This document shows, piece by piece, positions 54,647-64,000 of a stretch of 64,000 nt of DNA. The notes below the pieces were generated by a model. The model was given only the letters and a program-made list of their open reading frames with translations. It was not told the origin of the DNA and searched no databases. The stretch covers positions 930,001 through 994,000 of the forward strand of contig NZ_CP087714.1 in assembly GCF_039641995.1 (NCBI RefSeq). The letters are read 5' to 3'. A program made the translations under genes and the position numbers. The DNA comes from Geoglobus acetivorans (GTDB lineage Archaea; Halobacteriota; Archaeoglobi; Archaeoglobales; Archaeoglobaceae). How positions within the stretch are numbered: the first letter of the stretch is position 1; each line of letters starts with the position of its first letter.

Positions 54647-55690
54647 ATGAGCTTTGCCAGATATCTTGGAATCAGAATTTTTAATGCTTTATTAGTGCTA
54701 ATATTTGTCACATTTGTTGTATCGATTCTGTTTGTCAAAGTAGCAGAGGATGATGCGAAAACGAGGATTGCTGAGGTAATAAACAATGAGGCAAGGAACC
54801 CGGCAATTTTGAGGCTTAAAGCAAGTGATCCAGAAGCATTTGAAAAATGGAAAAGCAATAGAGAAGAACAGCTGAGGAGAGAATTTGAGCTGGATAAGCC
54901 TTTCTGGGAGAGAGTAATATCCAAAACAAAAAATACTCTGCTGCTTAACTTTGGAAACGCAAGAAGCCCGGTATTTGGTGAGATAAAGGTATCAAAAATT
55001 ATTGAAAAAGCGATTCCAAGAACAGTCCTGCTTTTCACGACTGCTCAGATAATTATAACGTTTATTGGCCTCCTTCTCGGTATAAAAGCAGCTCAAAAGG
55101 CCGGTAAGTTTGTGGACAAGCTTTTATCTGTTCTCGCCATGCTCACCGCAAGTCTCCCAATGTGGTGGGTGGGTATGGTCTTTATCCTTGCATTTTCGTT
55201 CCAGCTTGGAATATTTCCTGCTTCCAGCCTTCCAAATCCAAATCTGGAGGGTTTTGCCTACTATAAGGATCTGCTCTGGAGGATGGTCCTTCCCCTGATA
55301 ACTGTGGTATTCGTCAGCTTTGGAGGCTGGGCATACACCACGAGGAACATAATGATCAGCACCATGCATGAGGATTTCATAACCGTTGCAAGGGCCAAAG
55401 GCGTTCCGGAAAACAGAGTTATATACGGGCATGCTCTCAAAGCAGCATCACCACCCATAGTTACCAACGTTATTATCGGTCTTCTCGGATCCTTAGGTGG
55501 AGCCATAATCACCGAGGCGGTGTTCAACTGGCCCGGTATGGGAAGGCTGTACTGGGTGGCTTTGCAGCAGAGTGAGGTTAATCTGCTCATGGGTGTGACT
55601 TACGTTACGGTTGCGCTCTTCTTGGCTTCGATGATAATTGCCGATGTGATTTACGGCTATCTGGACCCGAGAGTAAGGGTTGGTAGGTGA
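54647..55690 (+). CDS. Peptide ABC transporter permease, DppB type
   Basis: The 347-residue permease has six helices and the DppB features: the first helix (RIFNALLVLIFVTFVVSILF), a large exported loop of about 90 residues rich in charged helices, and the EAA motif region RAKGVPENRVIYGHALKAA, which contacts the ATPases. It pairs with the DppC-type permease encoded next. GGTGGGG precedes ATG 54647. The exported loop is longer than in E. coli DppB, as in other archaeal examples. Confidence 0.93.
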   Translation: MSFARYLGIRIFNALLVLIFVTFVVSILFVKVAEDDAKTRIAEVINNEARNPAILRLKASDPEAFEKWKSNREEQLRREFELDKPFWERVISKTKNTLLLNFGNARSPVFGEIKVSKIIEKAIPRTVLLFTTAQIIITFIGLLLGIKAAQKAGKFVDKLLSVLAMLTASLPMWWVGMVFILAFSFQLGIFPASSLPNPNLEGFAYYKDLLWRMVLPLITVVFVSFGGWAYTTRNIMISTMHEDFITVARAKGVPENRVIYGHALKAASPPIVTNVIIGLLGSLGGAIITEAVFNWPGMGRLYWVALQQSEVNLLMGVTYVTVALFLASMIIADVIYGYLDPRVRVGR

Positions 55691-55697
55691 TCTGGCA

Positions 55698-57125
55698 ATG
55701 AGGCTCGAAGACGTCGTTGACAGCGCAAAAGATTTCCTGTATGAATTCAGGTATCAGAAGGGCGGAATTTTGGGGTTTATTTTGCTCATTCTCCTCATTC
55801 TGGCTGCGGTTTTTGCTCCAAACATCACTTCGCCTGACGTACCTGAGAGATGGTCAAAAGAGTTCTGGGTTGAAAACCCCCCGAACGTCCCGCCTACATG
55901 GATAAACTACTTTTCGTCGGAAAAACTGGCTCCTCATGAGATTCTCTCTCTGGATGACATGCAGGTGGAGGAGCTCGATGGTGGGGGAGTGCTGCTCAGG
56001 ATTGTGTACAAAAACACGTATGATGTCCCTCCGAAGGATATAATTCTGCAGGGTTTTAATGTGTCTTCTTCCGATGCAAGAAATAAACCGCTGATGACGA
56101 TCACTCTGAAGAGGCCGGATGGTAGCGAGGTTGTCCTCATTGAAGATAGAAAAGTTTCCTCCAATACGGTGATTCAGATAGCAACGAATACTGAGGTGAG
56201 AAAAAACGTTTTTGAGTGGGCAAAAAAAGTTTCTGGAGCAAAATTGTCTCCCTCGGAAGAAATAAAGCTTCAGGCGTTGATGGACACAATGAAAATTCTG
56301 TTTGGTAAAGCAGACGAAAACATATTTGAAGGAACCTCCCCCCTGCACGGAGATTATGTGTTTGAAGTGAAAATAACATATCAGGATGGAGATAACACCC
56401 TTGACCTTTCAAACTTAACAGCAATCTTTTCGGGAAGGACCTATGGGTTGATGGGCACCGATAGCAAGGGCAGGGATATCTGGGCAGGACTCGTGTGGGG
56501 AACGAGGGTTTCTCTGTCGGTTGGTATTGCGGTCGCTGTGCTGAGCGTCCTTATTGGGATTGTTTACGGTGTTGCAAGTGCGTATTTTGGAGGGTGGAAA
56601 GACGAGGCCTTGCAGAGGTTTAACGAATTCATGTTCTCCATGCCGGTATTACCAATACTGATTTTGCTGGGTGCATATCTGGGTCATATGGCTCTCTCCC
56701 AGATCGTTCTACTTCTGGTACTTTTCGGATGGGTCGGTGTTGCAAAGGTTGCAAGGAGCATGGCTCTTCAGATAAAGGAGCAGACCTTCGTTGAGGCTGC
56801 AAGAGCTTTGGGTGCTGGCTCAGGAAGGGTTGTCTTCAAGCACATAATGCCACAGATAATGCCCTACGCGTTCTCTCAGATGGCTCTTTCTGTTCCGTAT
56901 GCAGTTATGACTGAAGCTGCCCTGAGCTTTCTTGGCATTGGTGATCCGACGGCAGTAACCTGGGGACAGATGCTTTATGATGCTCAGAATGCTGGAGCCA
57001 CAATAAACGGATACTGGTGGTGGGTGATCCCTCCGGGCTTAGCGATTGCACTGGTTGGACTGGCTTTCGTGCTGATTGGCGTTGCGCTGGACAGGATACT
57101 GAATCCGAGGATGAGGACACTGTGA
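55698..57125 (+). CDS. Peptide ABC transporter permease, DppC type, with large exported insert
   Basis: The 475-residue permease is much longer than the usual 280-300. After the first helix (ILGFILLILLILAAVFAP) comes an exported segment of about 200 residues with beta-rich parts (LLRIVYKNTYDVPPKDIILQ, MTITLKRPDGSEVVLIED), before the MGTDSKGRDIWAGL motif and the usual helices and EAA loop (EAARALGAGSGRVVFKHIMP). The insert could contact the binding protein outside the cell. ATG 55698 is six bases after GGTGAT. Together with DppB it forms the membrane channel. Confidence 0.92.
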   Translation: MRLEDVVDSAKDFLYEFRYQKGGILGFILLILLILAAVFAPNITSPDVPERWSKEFWVENPPNVPPTWINYFSSEKLAPHEILSLDDMQVEELDGGGVLLRIVYKNTYDVPPKDIILQGFNVSSSDARNKPLMTITLKRPDGSEVVLIEDRKVSSNTVIQIATNTEVRKNVFEWAKKVSGAKLSPSEEIKLQALMDTMKILFGKADENIFEGTSPLHGDYVFEVKITYQDGDNTLDLSNLTAIFSGRTYGLMGTDSKGRDIWAGLVWGTRVSLSVGIAVAVLSVLIGIVYGVASAYFGGWKDEALQRFNEFMFSMPVLPILILLGAYLGHMALSQIVLLLVLFGWVGVAKVARSMALQIKEQTFVEAARALGAGSGRVVFKHIMPQIMPYAFSQMALSVPYAVMTEAALSFLGIGDPTAVTWGQMLYDAQNAGATINGYWWWVIPPGLAIALVGLAFVLIGVALDRILNPRMRTL

Positions 57126-57135
57126 GGTGTTGAAG

Positions 57136-58092
57136 ATGCTGCTTGAGGTTAACAATCTACGAACTCACTTTTTCACAACGCGAGGTGTTGTCAGAGGAGT
57201 GGACGGTGTGAGCTTTACTCTTGAAAAGGGAAATGTTCTGGGTCTTGCCGGAGAAAGTGGATGTGGAAAATCGACTCTTGGGTATTCGCTCATAAGGCTT
57301 GTCCCACCTCCTGGAAAAATTGTAGAAGGGCGAATTGAACTTGATGGCATGGAACTGGTGTCGATGAGCGAAAATGAGTTCAGGAAAGAAATCAGGTGGA
57401 AGAGGATATCCATGGTGTTTCAGGGAGCCATGAACGCTCTGAATCCCGTTTACACTATCGGTTACCAGATGATGGAGCCCTTCAAGTACCACACTGATAT
57501 TCCTGAAAGTGAGGCCAAAGAGAGTATTGCGAAATATCTTGAGTATGTTGGTCTGGATCCTGAAATAGTGAACAGATATCCGCATGAGCTTAGTGGTGGG
57601 ATGAAGCAGAGAGTAATGATTGCAATGGCTCTTCTCCTTGAGCCTGATCTGGTCATTGCAGATGAACCCACAACGGCTCTTGATGTCATCGTTCAGGCTC
57701 AGATAATCAATCTTCTGAAGAAACTGAAAAAGGACCTGGGGATCTCGCTTATTTTCATCACACATGATCTGAGCATTCTGGCAGAAGTTTCTGACAGGAT
57801 TGCCATAATGTATGCAGGAAAGATAGTAGAGATTGGAGACAGTGACCGAATTTACAGGGATCCAAAGCATCCATACACTCAGAAGCTGCTTGCGGCTATT
57901 CCGAGAGTCCACGAAAAAGTTGATAAGCTGGAGTTCATTCCGGGTGCCCCGCCAAATCTGGCAAACCCTCCCTCTGGGTGCCGGTTCCATCCAAGATGCC
58001 CCTATGCAAGCAGGATATGCAGGGAAAAGGAGCCGGAGAGGACGATTCTCAGTGATGGGCGGGAGGTTTACTGTCATAATGTTTCAGGGTGA
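57136..58092 (+). CDS. Peptide ABC transporter ATPase, DppD type
   Basis: The 318-residue ATPase has Walker A GESGCGKST, Q-loop MVFQGAMNALNPV, signature HELSGGMKQR, Walker B DLVIADEPTTALD and His in FITHDLS, then the oligopeptide-specific C-terminal domain with the Cys cluster CRFHPRCPYA-x-x-x-C, which in these families binds an Fe-S cluster. It powers peptide uptake with the DppF-type partner. GAGGTG precedes ATG 57136, which lies 10 bases after the DppC stop. Confidence 0.95.
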   Translation: MLLEVNNLRTHFFTTRGVVRGVDGVSFTLEKGNVLGLAGESGCGKSTLGYSLIRLVPPPGKIVEGRIELDGMELVSMSENEFRKEIRWKRISMVFQGAMNALNPVYTIGYQMMEPFKYHTDIPESEAKESIAKYLEYVGLDPEIVNRYPHELSGGMKQRVMIAMALLLEPDLVIADEPTTALDVIVQAQIINLLKKLKKDLGISLIFITHDLSILAEVSDRIAIMYAGKIVEIGDSDRIYRDPKHPYTQKLLAAIPRVHEKVDKLEFIPGAPPNLANPPSGCRFHPRCPYASRICREKEPERTILSDGREVYCHNVSG

Positions 58093-58097
58093 TCATT

Positions 58098-59108
58098 ATG
58101 GGACAGAATGTGGAGCTGAAGGTCGAGGGACTGAAAAAGTACTTCCCTGTTAAAAGGGGGATAAAAAGCGTATTGAAAAGAGAGCCTCCCAGATTTGTCA
58201 GAGCCGTAGATGGGATTTCGTTTGAAATTAGAAAGCAGCAAATTTTTGCTCTTGTTGGCGAGTCTGGTTGCGGGAAAACAACAACGGGAAAGCTGATAAT
58301 GAAACTTATTGAACCGACAGAGGGAAGGATTTTTCTGAGAGGAAAGGATGTGTCTCATCTTAAGTCGAAAGATGAGGTGCTGAAATACAGAAAAACGGTT
58401 CAGATGATATATCAGGATCCCTTTTCTTCCATCAATCCGAGATTCAGGGTATATGATGTTCTGGAGGAGCCCCTTATAATCCATGGGGTGGGCGATAGCA
58501 GGTCAGAAAGGGAGGAGCTCATACACAGAGCGCTTGAGCTGGTGAGGCTAACACCTCCAGATGAATTTGTGAGCAGGTTCCCTCACATGCTCAGCGGAGG
58601 ACAGAGACAGAGAGTTGCGATTGCGAGGGCGATTATTCTGAACCCGGAGTTTGTGGTCGCGGATGAGCCTGTTTCCATGCTTGACGTTTCAATCAGGGCA
58701 GAAATTCTTGAGCTTATGAGAAAACTGAGAAACGATCTCGGTCTGACCTACCTCTACATCACTCACGACCTCTCAACTGCAAGATACTTTTCAGACTGGA
58801 TTGGAGTGATGTATCTCGGCAGGATAATCGAGATGGGTGAGGTTGACAGGGTGATTGACAATCCACTACACCCGTATACAAAAGCGCTGCTTGAAGCAGT
58901 TCCGGAACCTGATCCCGAAAGAAAGGATATTATCAAAATGCTTCCCATAAAGGGTGAAGTTCCAAGTGCCATCAATATTCCTCCGGGATGCAGATTCCAT
59001 CCCAGGTGCATCCACGCAAAAGAGGGTCTGTGTAATGTTAAGCACCCGGAAACAGTGGAATTTGAGAGGAATCATTACGTCGAGTGCCATCTTGCCGGAA
59101 GCGTATGA
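58098..59108 (+). CDS. Peptide ABC transporter ATPase, DppF type
   Basis: The 336-residue ATPase has Walker A GESGCGKTT, Q-loop MIYQDPFSSINP, signature MLSGGQRQR, Walker B EFVVADEPVSMLD and YITHDLS, with the C-terminal CRFHPRCIHAKEGLC Cys cluster. The N-terminal linker (YFPVKRGIKSVLKREPP) is typical of DppF/OppF. ATG 58098 follows GGGTGATC, five bases away, and GTG 58089 is less likely. The last gene of the operon starts inside its stop codon. Confidence 0.95.
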   Translation: MGQNVELKVEGLKKYFPVKRGIKSVLKREPPRFVRAVDGISFEIRKQQIFALVGESGCGKTTTGKLIMKLIEPTEGRIFLRGKDVSHLKSKDEVLKYRKTVQMIYQDPFSSINPRFRVYDVLEEPLIIHGVGDSRSEREELIHRALELVRLTPPDEFVSRFPHMLSGGQRQRVAIARAIILNPEFVVADEPVSMLDVSIRAEILELMRKLRNDLGLTYLYITHDLSTARYFSDWIGVMYLGRIIEMGEVDRVIDNPLHPYTKALLEAVPEPDPERKDIIKMLPIKGEVPSAINIPPGCRFHPRCIHAKEGLCNVKHPETVEFERNHYVECHLAGSV

Positions 59109-61188: not shown

Positions 61189-61260
61189 GCCCCCGTAGGG
61201 TAGTGGATATCCTGAGGGTCTCCGGAACCCTCGACCCGGGTTCAATTCCCGGCGGGGGCG
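61189..61260 (+). tRNA. tRNA-Arg (anticodon CCG)
   Basis: The 72-base cloverleaf has acceptor GCCCCCG paired with CGGGGGC, a D arm (TAGGGTAGTGGATATCCTG), anticodon stem AGGGT/ACCCT enclosing loop CTCCGGA with anticodon CCG, and T arm CCGGG-TTCAATT-CCCGG. The discriminator base is G at 61260. No intron or encoded CCA is seen. Confidence 0.94.
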
Positions 61261-61358
61261 CTCCATTTTCTGGTACTAATCCCTACCCCATAACTTTCAG
61301 TCCGCTCTATACAGATCTACTTTTCGAATCAGCTCTCCAGAAAACCCCTTTAAAGACT

Positions 61359-61648: not shown

Positions 61649-63922
61649 ATGCGAAAATCGATACTCTCTTGCGTTCTGGTATTTTTTGCCCTTAGCCTTG
61701 CGGGAGTTGTTGATGCTGAATACGATCCCCCCGGTCCTCCAGCAGTCGAAGTCAGAGTTTGGCTGCTCAGTTTCACTCCGCTCGACAACTTCGACGACGG
61801 GTGGAACGGCAAGTCCGACATTCGTTTCGAAGCATTCGGCAGCGCTAAGGATGGGGAGAGCTATTATACTTACTTCGAGTACGATCATGATTCTCTAAGC
61901 GGAAAAGTCACTCCAAAGAACAAGGAAGGTAAGGATGTGATGAATATCCTGTACAAAGTCCGGGAGTGCTGGCCTGTGGATCTGGAGGTTGAGATCAGGG
62001 CTACAGATGTTGACAACCCGCCAGTTGACCCTGACGACGATCTTGGAAGCGTGAAGTTCAAGGTGGACAAAACGCTGAATAAAAAGTTTTACAGCGTTAT
62101 CATTCCAGGGAAGTTCCTTGTGAAGGTTTATGTTGAGGCAGTTCCTGTTAGAGAGGACTCTGACAGGTGTTCCTACTTTTTCGACCAGTCTGACACAAAA
62201 TCGAGCAGCATAGTTACAAAAAGCGGGGCCAATATTTACGATTTCGAGCTTGCCAACATGCTCAAGATGTGGATAGCTGACAGAGGCTTCGCAAATATGC
62301 TCATTTTCTTTCAGCAGTGCTTCGGAGGGGGAATGACGGACGACATTCTGGAGAAGATTGATGGTGACATTGCAATAACCTCTGCAGCAAAACACGATGA
62401 GGTGGCTTACGGCTACAATGAGACAAATGTCGGAGTGAAGGTCGATCCGTTTTCGAGAGAAGTAATGTCGGGATTGAAGAGCGGAAAGTCAGCCAAGGAA
62501 ATTGCCAGGGATGTCGAGAGGAATGACGATTATGGTGTGTATGGCGTGAAGAGGTACAGCGGAGATGTGCAGAAAAGCAGAGAACACACACAGTACAAAT
62601 CCGAAGGGGATGGGGACAAGGTGCGGCTTGGGAAGAATGCTGATGGGAGTGGGGTGAAGAGCAAGCACGCGATAGTCTTCGCCGGAGATCCCGACGACAC
62701 CTACGACTGGACTGAAGTCAAGGGCTTCGTGGACATGCTGAAGGGACAGGGCTTCTCTGACGAAGACATAGTGGTGCTGGCAGGCTCTGGAATGAGTGCT
62801 GCTAAACCATATGTGGATGGAGCTGGAACGAAGCAGGCTTTATGGAATGCGTTAAAGGATCTCTCCGGGAAAATGAACAAGGATGAGCAGCTTGTAGTAT
62901 TCGTGACCGATCACGGCAACCTTGAAAAGACAGAAAAGGCACTTGATCTGCTCATAAGGGACCCGGTCAGGCAGCCAATTCCAGTGAAAAATGAGGCCTT
63001 GGGGAATGAGGATGTGTGGGTACTCGACGAGGACTTCCTGGAAATTCTCAACGTTACAGATAACAACGTGCCCTACATCAGCCTGATGATCTTACCACCT
63101 GCAGATATTATTGAAGAGAACCAGACTTCCGAGTTTCTGGGGAACGTCACACTTCATCTGAACGAACTCGACCTCGACCCAGAGATAATCGAGCCTGTTT
63201 ATGCCCTTGACGAGTCACCAGACCTTGATGCATTTGAGGTGGTCTTTCCAGTCTATGATGAAGGGATTCTGGGCAGGGAGAACGTCATAGAGCTGTCCTT
63301 CGACCAGCCGGAGATGTTCAAGCCATTCTTAATCGAGATGCTGATAATCTCAACCGGCAGCATCCCGAGAATAATAGACGCTGGAGAGCCCGTTGTGGAG
63401 GAACCACCTCTTCCAGAGCTGGTATTAGAACTCACTCCAGTCTTTGATGTGGTGAACGGAACCCTGATTCTCTCTGACAGCCCCGTTCTGACTGAGGATG
63501 AGATTTCAGAGCTTATTGCCTCAGGAGACCTGTTTGTCCTGATGGAGAAGAAGAAGGACTGGTACAACAACAACACGAATCTGGTTCCGGGATTCATAAA
63601 GGACTGGCTTGGCAACACGAGGGTGAATGTGGAGATTTTGATGGATGACGGCAGCGTTATGGATATCTACATGGTTGTGGAAAACGCCTACATAAACGAA
63701 TTCGAGAAAGGAAAATTGAGCGATGCCAGTGCGAAAGCAAGTTTGAGTGAGGAGACTGTCAGGAGGATCATAAACTCTGATGATCCTGTGGCTGAGGTTC
63801 AGAAAGCCTACAGTGATGGGGATATCCAGTACTCCGGCGTGGGATTTGTTGAGAGCATCAAGGTTGAGGTTGTGAAAGTAATTGTGAAGATATACTTCAT
63901 CATAAGCGACCTTCTGGGATGA
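61649..63922 (+). CDS. Secreted clan CD (caspase/legumain-like) protein, apparently permuted, with SCP2-like C-terminus
   Basis: The 757-residue protein has a signal peptide (residues 1-23, ending VVDA). Residues about 200-275 look like the Cys half of a clan CD peptidase: a hydrophobic strand into FFQQCFGGGMTDD (Cys224), then ITSAAKHDEVAYG. Residues about 340-425 look like the His half: KHAIVFAGDPDD, DIVVLAGSG, VDGAGTKQALWNAL, LVVFVTDHGN (His422). In the known families the His half comes first. No second QC motif or DHG follows in the normal order, so the domain looks circularly permuted. Residues about 652-740 resemble an SCP2-like fold. Between them is an acidic beta-rich region. Confidence 0.7.
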   Translation: MRKSILSCVLVFFALSLAGVVDAEYDPPGPPAVEVRVWLLSFTPLDNFDDGWNGKSDIRFEAFGSAKDGESYYTYFEYDHDSLSGKVTPKNKEGKDVMNILYKVRECWPVDLEVEIRATDVDNPPVDPDDDLGSVKFKVDKTLNKKFYSVIIPGKFLVKVYVEAVPVREDSDRCSYFFDQSDTKSSSIVTKSGANIYDFELANMLKMWIADRGFANMLIFFQQCFGGGMTDDILEKIDGDIAITSAAKHDEVAYGYNETNVGVKVDPFSREVMSGLKSGKSAKEIARDVERNDDYGVYGVKRYSGDVQKSREHTQYKSEGDGDKVRLGKNADGSGVKSKHAIVFAGDPDDTYDWTEVKGFVDMLKGQGFSDEDIVVLAGSGMSAAKPYVDGAGTKQALWNALKDLSGKMNKDEQLVVFVTDHGNLEKTEKALDLLIRDPVRQPIPVKNEALGNEDVWVLDEDFLEILNVTDNNVPYISLMILPPADIIEENQTSEFLGNVTLHLNELDLDPEIIEPVYALDESPDLDAFEVVFPVYDEGILGRENVIELSFDQPEMFKPFLIEMLIISTGSIPRIIDAGEPVVEEPPLPELVLELTPVFDVVNGTLILSDSPVLTEDEISELIASGDLFVLMEKKKDWYNNNTNLVPGFIKDWLGNTRVNVEILMDDGSVMDIYMVVENAYINEFEKGKLSDASAKASLSEETVRRIINSDDPVAEVQKAYSDGDIQYSGVGFVESIKVEVVKVIVKIYFIISDLLG

Positions 63923-63927
63923 TTTTA

Positions 63928-64000
63928 ATGAACGGAACTTCCATTTACCTCCTTTTTGCTCTCTTGCTACTCAGCTCTTTCACCTTCGGGTGCAGTGATG
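63928..64000 (+). CDS. Start of a lipoprotein gene, cut by window end
   Basis: ATG 63928 opens a frame that reaches the last base. The 24 visible residues form a lipoprotein signal peptide: MNGTSIYLLFALLLLSSF then TFGC, a lipobox with Cys at residue 22. It begins five bases after the caspase-like gene on the same strand, so it may be its partner. Nothing more can be said without the continuation. Confidence 0.6.
   Translation, partial: MNGTSIYLLFALLLLSSFTFGCSD

Follow-up and report, generated by a model that had tools for sequence, protein, structure and literature searches.

We have analysed a 64,000-nucleotide stretch of the Geoglobus acetivorans genome (hereafter the window), near the end of which lies a gene for a secreted protein of 757 amino acids, followed by the start of a lipoprotein gene (Table 1). 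The genome holds one copy of the first gene. An earlier sequence-only reading had proposed that its product is a circularly permuted caspase- or legumain-like peptidase and that it is secreted. The latter agrees with the obvious signal peptide in the sequence, and the former was supported by hidden Markov model (HMM) searches, profile-profile comparison, sequence comparison with solved structures and the conservation of 18 homologues. We conclude, with a probability of roughly 0.84, that the protein is a secreted or cell-surface cysteine endopeptidase, and that in its catalytic domain the caspase/haemoglobinase fold, in its C13 (legumain-like) form, would be truly circularly permuted.

Table 1. 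Features of the peptidase gene and of the adjoining gene, in positions of the window.
Feature	Position	Strand	Basis or remark
Whole gene, secreted 757-aa protein with predicted circularly permuted C13/legumain-like domain	61649..63922	+	Open reading frame and homologues
Signal peptide, residues 1-23 (MRKSILSCVLVFFALSLAGVVDA)	61649..61717	+	Inspection of the sequence; position kept in homologues, sequence variable
N-terminal beta-sandwich, possibly C2-like, residues ~32-167	61742..62149	+	Foldseek of a low-confidence model
Cys half, residues 185-331	62201..62641	+	Corresponds to the C-terminal part of the canonical C13 domain (alpha3, beta4-Cys, beta5, subsequent helices)
Codon of Cys224, predicted nucleophile	62318..62320	+	Invariant in 18 homologues; paired with the IEAC cysteine of legumain in the alignment
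Linker from canonical C-terminus to canonical N-terminus, residues 326-338	62624..62662	+	Rotation here gives or equals the top score
His half, residues 332-437	62642..62959	+	Corresponds to the N-terminal part of the canonical C13 domain (beta1-alpha1-beta2-alpha2-beta3-His)
His422 codon (DHGN motif; predicted general base)	62912..62914	+	Invariant in 18 homologues; paired with the catalytic-His region of metacaspase-4 in the alignment
Conserved connector and predicted beta-rich domain, residues 438-575	62960..63373	+	Alignment; low-confidence model with predicted strands
C-terminal module, possibly SCP2-like lipid-binding fold, residues 617-757	63497..63919	+	Foldseek (low-confidence model); module common to other archaeal proteins
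Start of downstream lipoprotein gene, 433 aa, ATGA overlap	63919..64000, continues in L001 3771-5072	+	Runs past the window

Along the chain, Cys224 lies in the context FFQQCFGGGM, preceded by a hydrophobic strand and a helix, and is followed by ITSAAKHDE, IVFAGDPDD, VDG (residues 389-391) and LVVFVTDHGN with His422. The latter residue closes a beta-alpha-beta-alpha-beta segment, the start of which is KHAIVFAGD (residues 339-347). The motifs that the sequence-only reading had assigned, a Cys half with Cys224 and ITSA-K-x-x-E ahead of a His half with His422, were found at their positions and in that order. A Pfam scan recognised a single family, Peptidase_C13 (PF01650), at residues 134-277 (E=3e-7, 30.7 bits against a cut-off of 22.8). 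This alignment takes in the Cys half alone, and the same family matched all seven of the seven members scanned. The protein had no match to Pfam C14, and an NCBIfam scan of it gave no match.

A full-length collinear match to C13 was not found; the native order gave two swapped partial matches and the rotated order one alignment. Rotated Pfam queries gained 3-4 bits, and the C13 stretch widened from profile positions 128-215 to 106-215, crossing the junction. For further HMMs we used canonical-order C13-like proteins, five from the same phylum (L029, L044, L031, L035 and L030) and one from a Muribaculaceae bacterium (L051), all of which run His then Cys. In every complete permuted member shown, these canonical-only HMMs matched the two halves with their order inverted, the Cys half at about positions 117-194 and the His half at about 3-118 of the canonical HMM. 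When the sequences were rotated in silico at the linker, the score against the six-protein HMM (HMMER) rose from 34 to 57 bits for the window protein (P0001) and from 38-45 to 58-63 bits for the homologues. Over the HMM tests, native domains scored 23-45 bits and rotated ones 41-63 bits; among 200 composition shuffles per protein, the top score was about 5 bits and all were below 6.

Profile-profile comparison with and without permutation, the most clear-cut of our tests, likewise bore out the sequence-only reading. In the native order, hhalign paired query 11-151 with template 129-249 and query 181-257 with template 18-111, that is, swapped. After rotation it produced one alignment covering template 18-249 of 258, with an E-value of 8e-18 versus 7e-11 for the better native half; when ten canonical proteins were used, the values were 1.6e-20 rotated versus 2.1e-11 native. 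Comparison of the family profile with PDB sequences, an independent approach, had the same outcome: legumain (6xt5), the ligase VdiPAL1 and metacaspase-4 matched both halves with the order inverted, their His-half stretch preceding the Cys-half stretch. Cys224 corresponds to the cysteine of IEAC in the legumain alignment, and the DHG region corresponds to SGHG in that of metacaspase-4. BURRH matches in the same search had no significant stretch and were rejected as repeat artefacts. These comparisons support two halves that are related to the C13 domain and swapped in chain order and, judged by sequence, the closest family is C13 (legumain).

Another way to explain two such halves would be a tandem of canonical domains, both degraded and not cooperating, with the His half lost from the first and the Cys half from the second. 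The segment after His422, WVLDEDFLEIL, looks alpha3-like by eye, and duplication followed by loss is a standard route to permutants. In hhalign and HMM tests, however, the post-His segment showed no similarity to alpha3-beta4, and in the model a separate beta-rich domain precedes the Cys half. The strict conservation of both halves also speaks for a single unit; we consider the tandem arrangement extremely unlikely. A relic duplicated Cys half after His422, which had been suggested by eye, was rejected on the same tests. The claim that the protein has no second pair in the canonical order also stood, because a motif search of the 757 residues found no His-then-Cys pair elsewhere and the segment after His422 is unlike a second Cys half.

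Homologues were present at 85% and 81% identity in genomes of the same genus and at ~43% in two further Archaeoglobaceae genomes, and a scan of species-representative genomes brought in relatives from Thermococcus. In the phylum of the window, 5 of 295 genomes matched at full coverage, all of them Archaeoglobaceae, and one more match was weak. In the class Thermococci, 16 of 115 genomes matched; in one of these (G392, L067/L069) the gene is broken into two frames, and in another (G401, L068) a remnant is left. Our alignment comprised the 18 intact homologues, 5 from Archaeoglobaceae and 13 from Thermococci. In all 18, Cys and His are invariant and Cys comes before His, and the motifs DHGN, QCF-x-GGM, HAI-x-FAG and GTK are invariant as well. 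The glycine beside the catalytic His, a clan CD trait, is accordingly present in every member as part of DHG. With a single open frame in 18 genomes and E-values down to 1.6e-20, the idea that the resemblance is accidental or stems from faulty assembly or annotation is already refuted, and its probability is negligible. In an unrooted tree the Thermococci lie on one side of a branch, and the midpoint root parts the clade of the window protein from the remainder. Searches of viral contigs found no relatives, either with the permuted-family profile or with the canonical profile.

The Arg-His pair at the legumain S1 position (NYRHQAD), which lines up with the pocket that binds Asn/Asp in legumain, is kept in 15 of the 18 homologues. 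The three proteins of the window's clade are without it and have TYDW instead, with Tyr-Asp at the pair; the P1 preference of these enzymes is therefore uncertain and may differ. This replacement would also suit a pseudo-enzyme, in which the permuted caspase-like fold serves as a non-catalytic scaffold or binding module, as would the split and remnant copies in Thermococci, which indicate that the gene is dispensable and can be lost. However, the catalytic residues of pseudo-enzymes usually drift, and here the 18 homologues, down to ~43% identity, all keep Cys and His, the glycine of DHG and the CFxGGM context unchanged, so that we regard a pseudo-enzyme as unlikely. The two catalytic residues and the glycine-rich sequences around them do not vary even between distant members, and the protein is therefore most likely catalytically active, as a cysteine endopeptidase that uses the customary dyad.

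The strands of the caspase sheet are ordered 2-1-3-4-5-6; His follows beta3 and Cys follows beta4 (PMC4357240). The chain order here is alpha3-beta4-Cys-beta5-helices-linker-beta1-alpha1-beta2-alpha2-beta3-His. As alpha3 comes first and beta3-His last, the new ends fall within the beta3-alpha3 loop. Two AlphaFold models, a full-length one and a domain model, were considered; for the second, the window domain was entered together with six homologues, five of them complete and one partial, and with L051 divided into its two halves, one row each. Both models, at low confidence, showed the elements in the expected order, with Cys224 and His422 directly after predicted strands.

Some of our results speak against a permuted C13 fold. 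The model confidence was low (pLDDT, the predicted local distance difference score, 56 and 63; pTM, the predicted template modelling score, 0.36 and 0.69, the latter for the domain model). A Foldseek search with the domain model gave no PDB match at E<=0.001, but aligners that work sequentially deal poorly with permutants. Taken by itself, the far C-terminal stretch of the Cys half (the ETPQY tail) matched canonical tails weakly, and it was counted solely as part of the whole-profile alignment. Also, the assignments of the flanking regions as C2-like and SCP2-like are possible ones that come from a low-confidence model. The top Foldseek matches of the domain model were lumazine synthase variants, which we took as uninformative. 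Because of the low model confidence and the lack of a significant Foldseek match, we infer the caspase/haemoglobinase fold of the rotated domain from homology. A short linker between the halves could favour domain swapping, whereby the halves would complete each other between the two chains of an obligate dimer and not within a permuted monomer. However, the linker is conserved at about 13 residues and a single-chain domain model reached a pTM of 0.69; we consider such a dimer very unlikely.

In the full-length low-confidence model, the N-terminal region matched C2 domains by Foldseek and the C-terminus matched SCP2-like proteins, including AF1534 of A. fulgidus. The N-terminal beta-sandwich region had no Pfam match, and the C-terminal module had no meaningful match to PDB by sequence. 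This module, with its GNERxN... motif, recurs in other archaeal proteins (L005, L007 and L016); L007 combines it with a dockerin, and a neighbouring gene there is cohesin-like.

The lipoprotein gene next door, to which the sequence-only reading had drawn attention, is real and overlaps the peptidase gene by 4 bases. Its product has a transglutaminase-like domain (PF01841, E=2e-7; DUF553) and weak EF-hand similarity. The two genes are adjacent in all three genomes of the window's clade, whereas next to the other members inspected we saw no gene of this kind. In Thermococci the neighbourhoods vary, and no consistent partner genes were found. Upstream in the window lie an oligopeptide ABC (ATP-binding cassette) transporter operon (54647-59108; Pfam BPD_transp_1, ABC_tran and oligo_HPY) and, between a MatE transporter gene and the peptidase gene, a tRNA-Arg (CCG) at 61189-61261. 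In genome G006, where the locus is placed elsewhere, an Opp-type ATPase gene is likewise directly upstream; a link to peptide uptake is conceivable.

By sequence, the canonical C-terminal half (alpha3, beta4 with Cys224, beta5 and helices) comes first in the chain, and about 13 linker residues connect it to what is canonically the N-terminal half (beta1-alpha1-beta2-alpha2-beta3 with His422). This places the new chain ends near the active site, in the loop that normally links the His strand to helix alpha3. In the mechanism that we propose for the permuted peptidase, the two halves would fold together in such a way that Cys224 and His422 make up the usual dyad and hydrolyse peptide bonds. The possible C2-like domain would enter, and the beta-rich domain and the possible SCP2-like module would leave, at this active-site loop. 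Through these flanking modules the enzyme may be kept at the membrane or the surface layer, and the proteins that it would process there would be surface or secreted ones. Both the signal peptide and the modules that possibly bind lipid point to a role at the cell surface, and processing of surface proteins is likelier than the toxin-like function that had been proposed, for which nothing in our analysis speaks. By analogy with GPI8 and the asparaginyl ligases, a permuted C13 domain beside an SCP2-like module might instead act as a surface transpeptidase or transamidase, joining cleaved C-termini of surface proteins to lipid or protein, which we consider distinctly unlikely.

In the open-licence literature of PubMed Central we found no earlier description of a natural permuted caspase-like enzyme with Cys before His. 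A natural, conserved family with the reversed dyad order, here from heat-loving archaea of the Archaeoglobales and Thermococcales, would break the order rule of clan CD (PMC4357240) and would indicate that a caspase/haemoglobinase core tolerates an opening between the two strands that bear the dyad. It may also offer a thermostable scaffold for single-chain permuted enzymes of the legumain type. Order-based or collinear searches call for caution, as they align half of such proteins, as Pfam did here.

The family shares its predicted fold elements, its motifs around Cys and His and its secreted context with C13 peptidases (legumain, asparaginyl ligases, GPI8) and with secreted bacterial and archaeal proteins of the canonical C13-like kind (such as L051, L029 and L044), and each of its halves is significantly similar to theirs in sequence, but its halves are swapped, Cys comes before His and the flanking domains are different. 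The His-then-Cys order of the dyad is one criterion for membership of clan CD (PMC4357240), and Cys224 precedes His422, or their equivalents do, in 18 of 18 homologues. Since the family has neither this order nor a collinear C13 match, the proteins are best named a circularly permuted, C13-related family and not ordinary members. Type III metacaspases of algae, which carry a p10-like domain at the N-terminus (PMC5756287), are likewise a natural rearrangement of a caspase-like enzyme. As we read that layout, however, both catalytic residues stay in an intact p20, His first, and the cut falls after Cys, whereas here the cut falls between His and Cys, which lie in different halves with Cys first. 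Engineered circularly permuted caspases such as cpCasp2, with the small subunit ahead of the large, show that the fold tolerates joined native ends and an opening elsewhere (PMC7760212); these are laboratory-made, and we take their dyad order as unchanged, assuming that the large subunit holds both residues. A precedent in an unrelated, papain-like fold is given by the permuted NlpC/P60 enzymes, in which a natural permutation swaps the order of the catalytic Cys and His and the active site is kept (PMC3142127).
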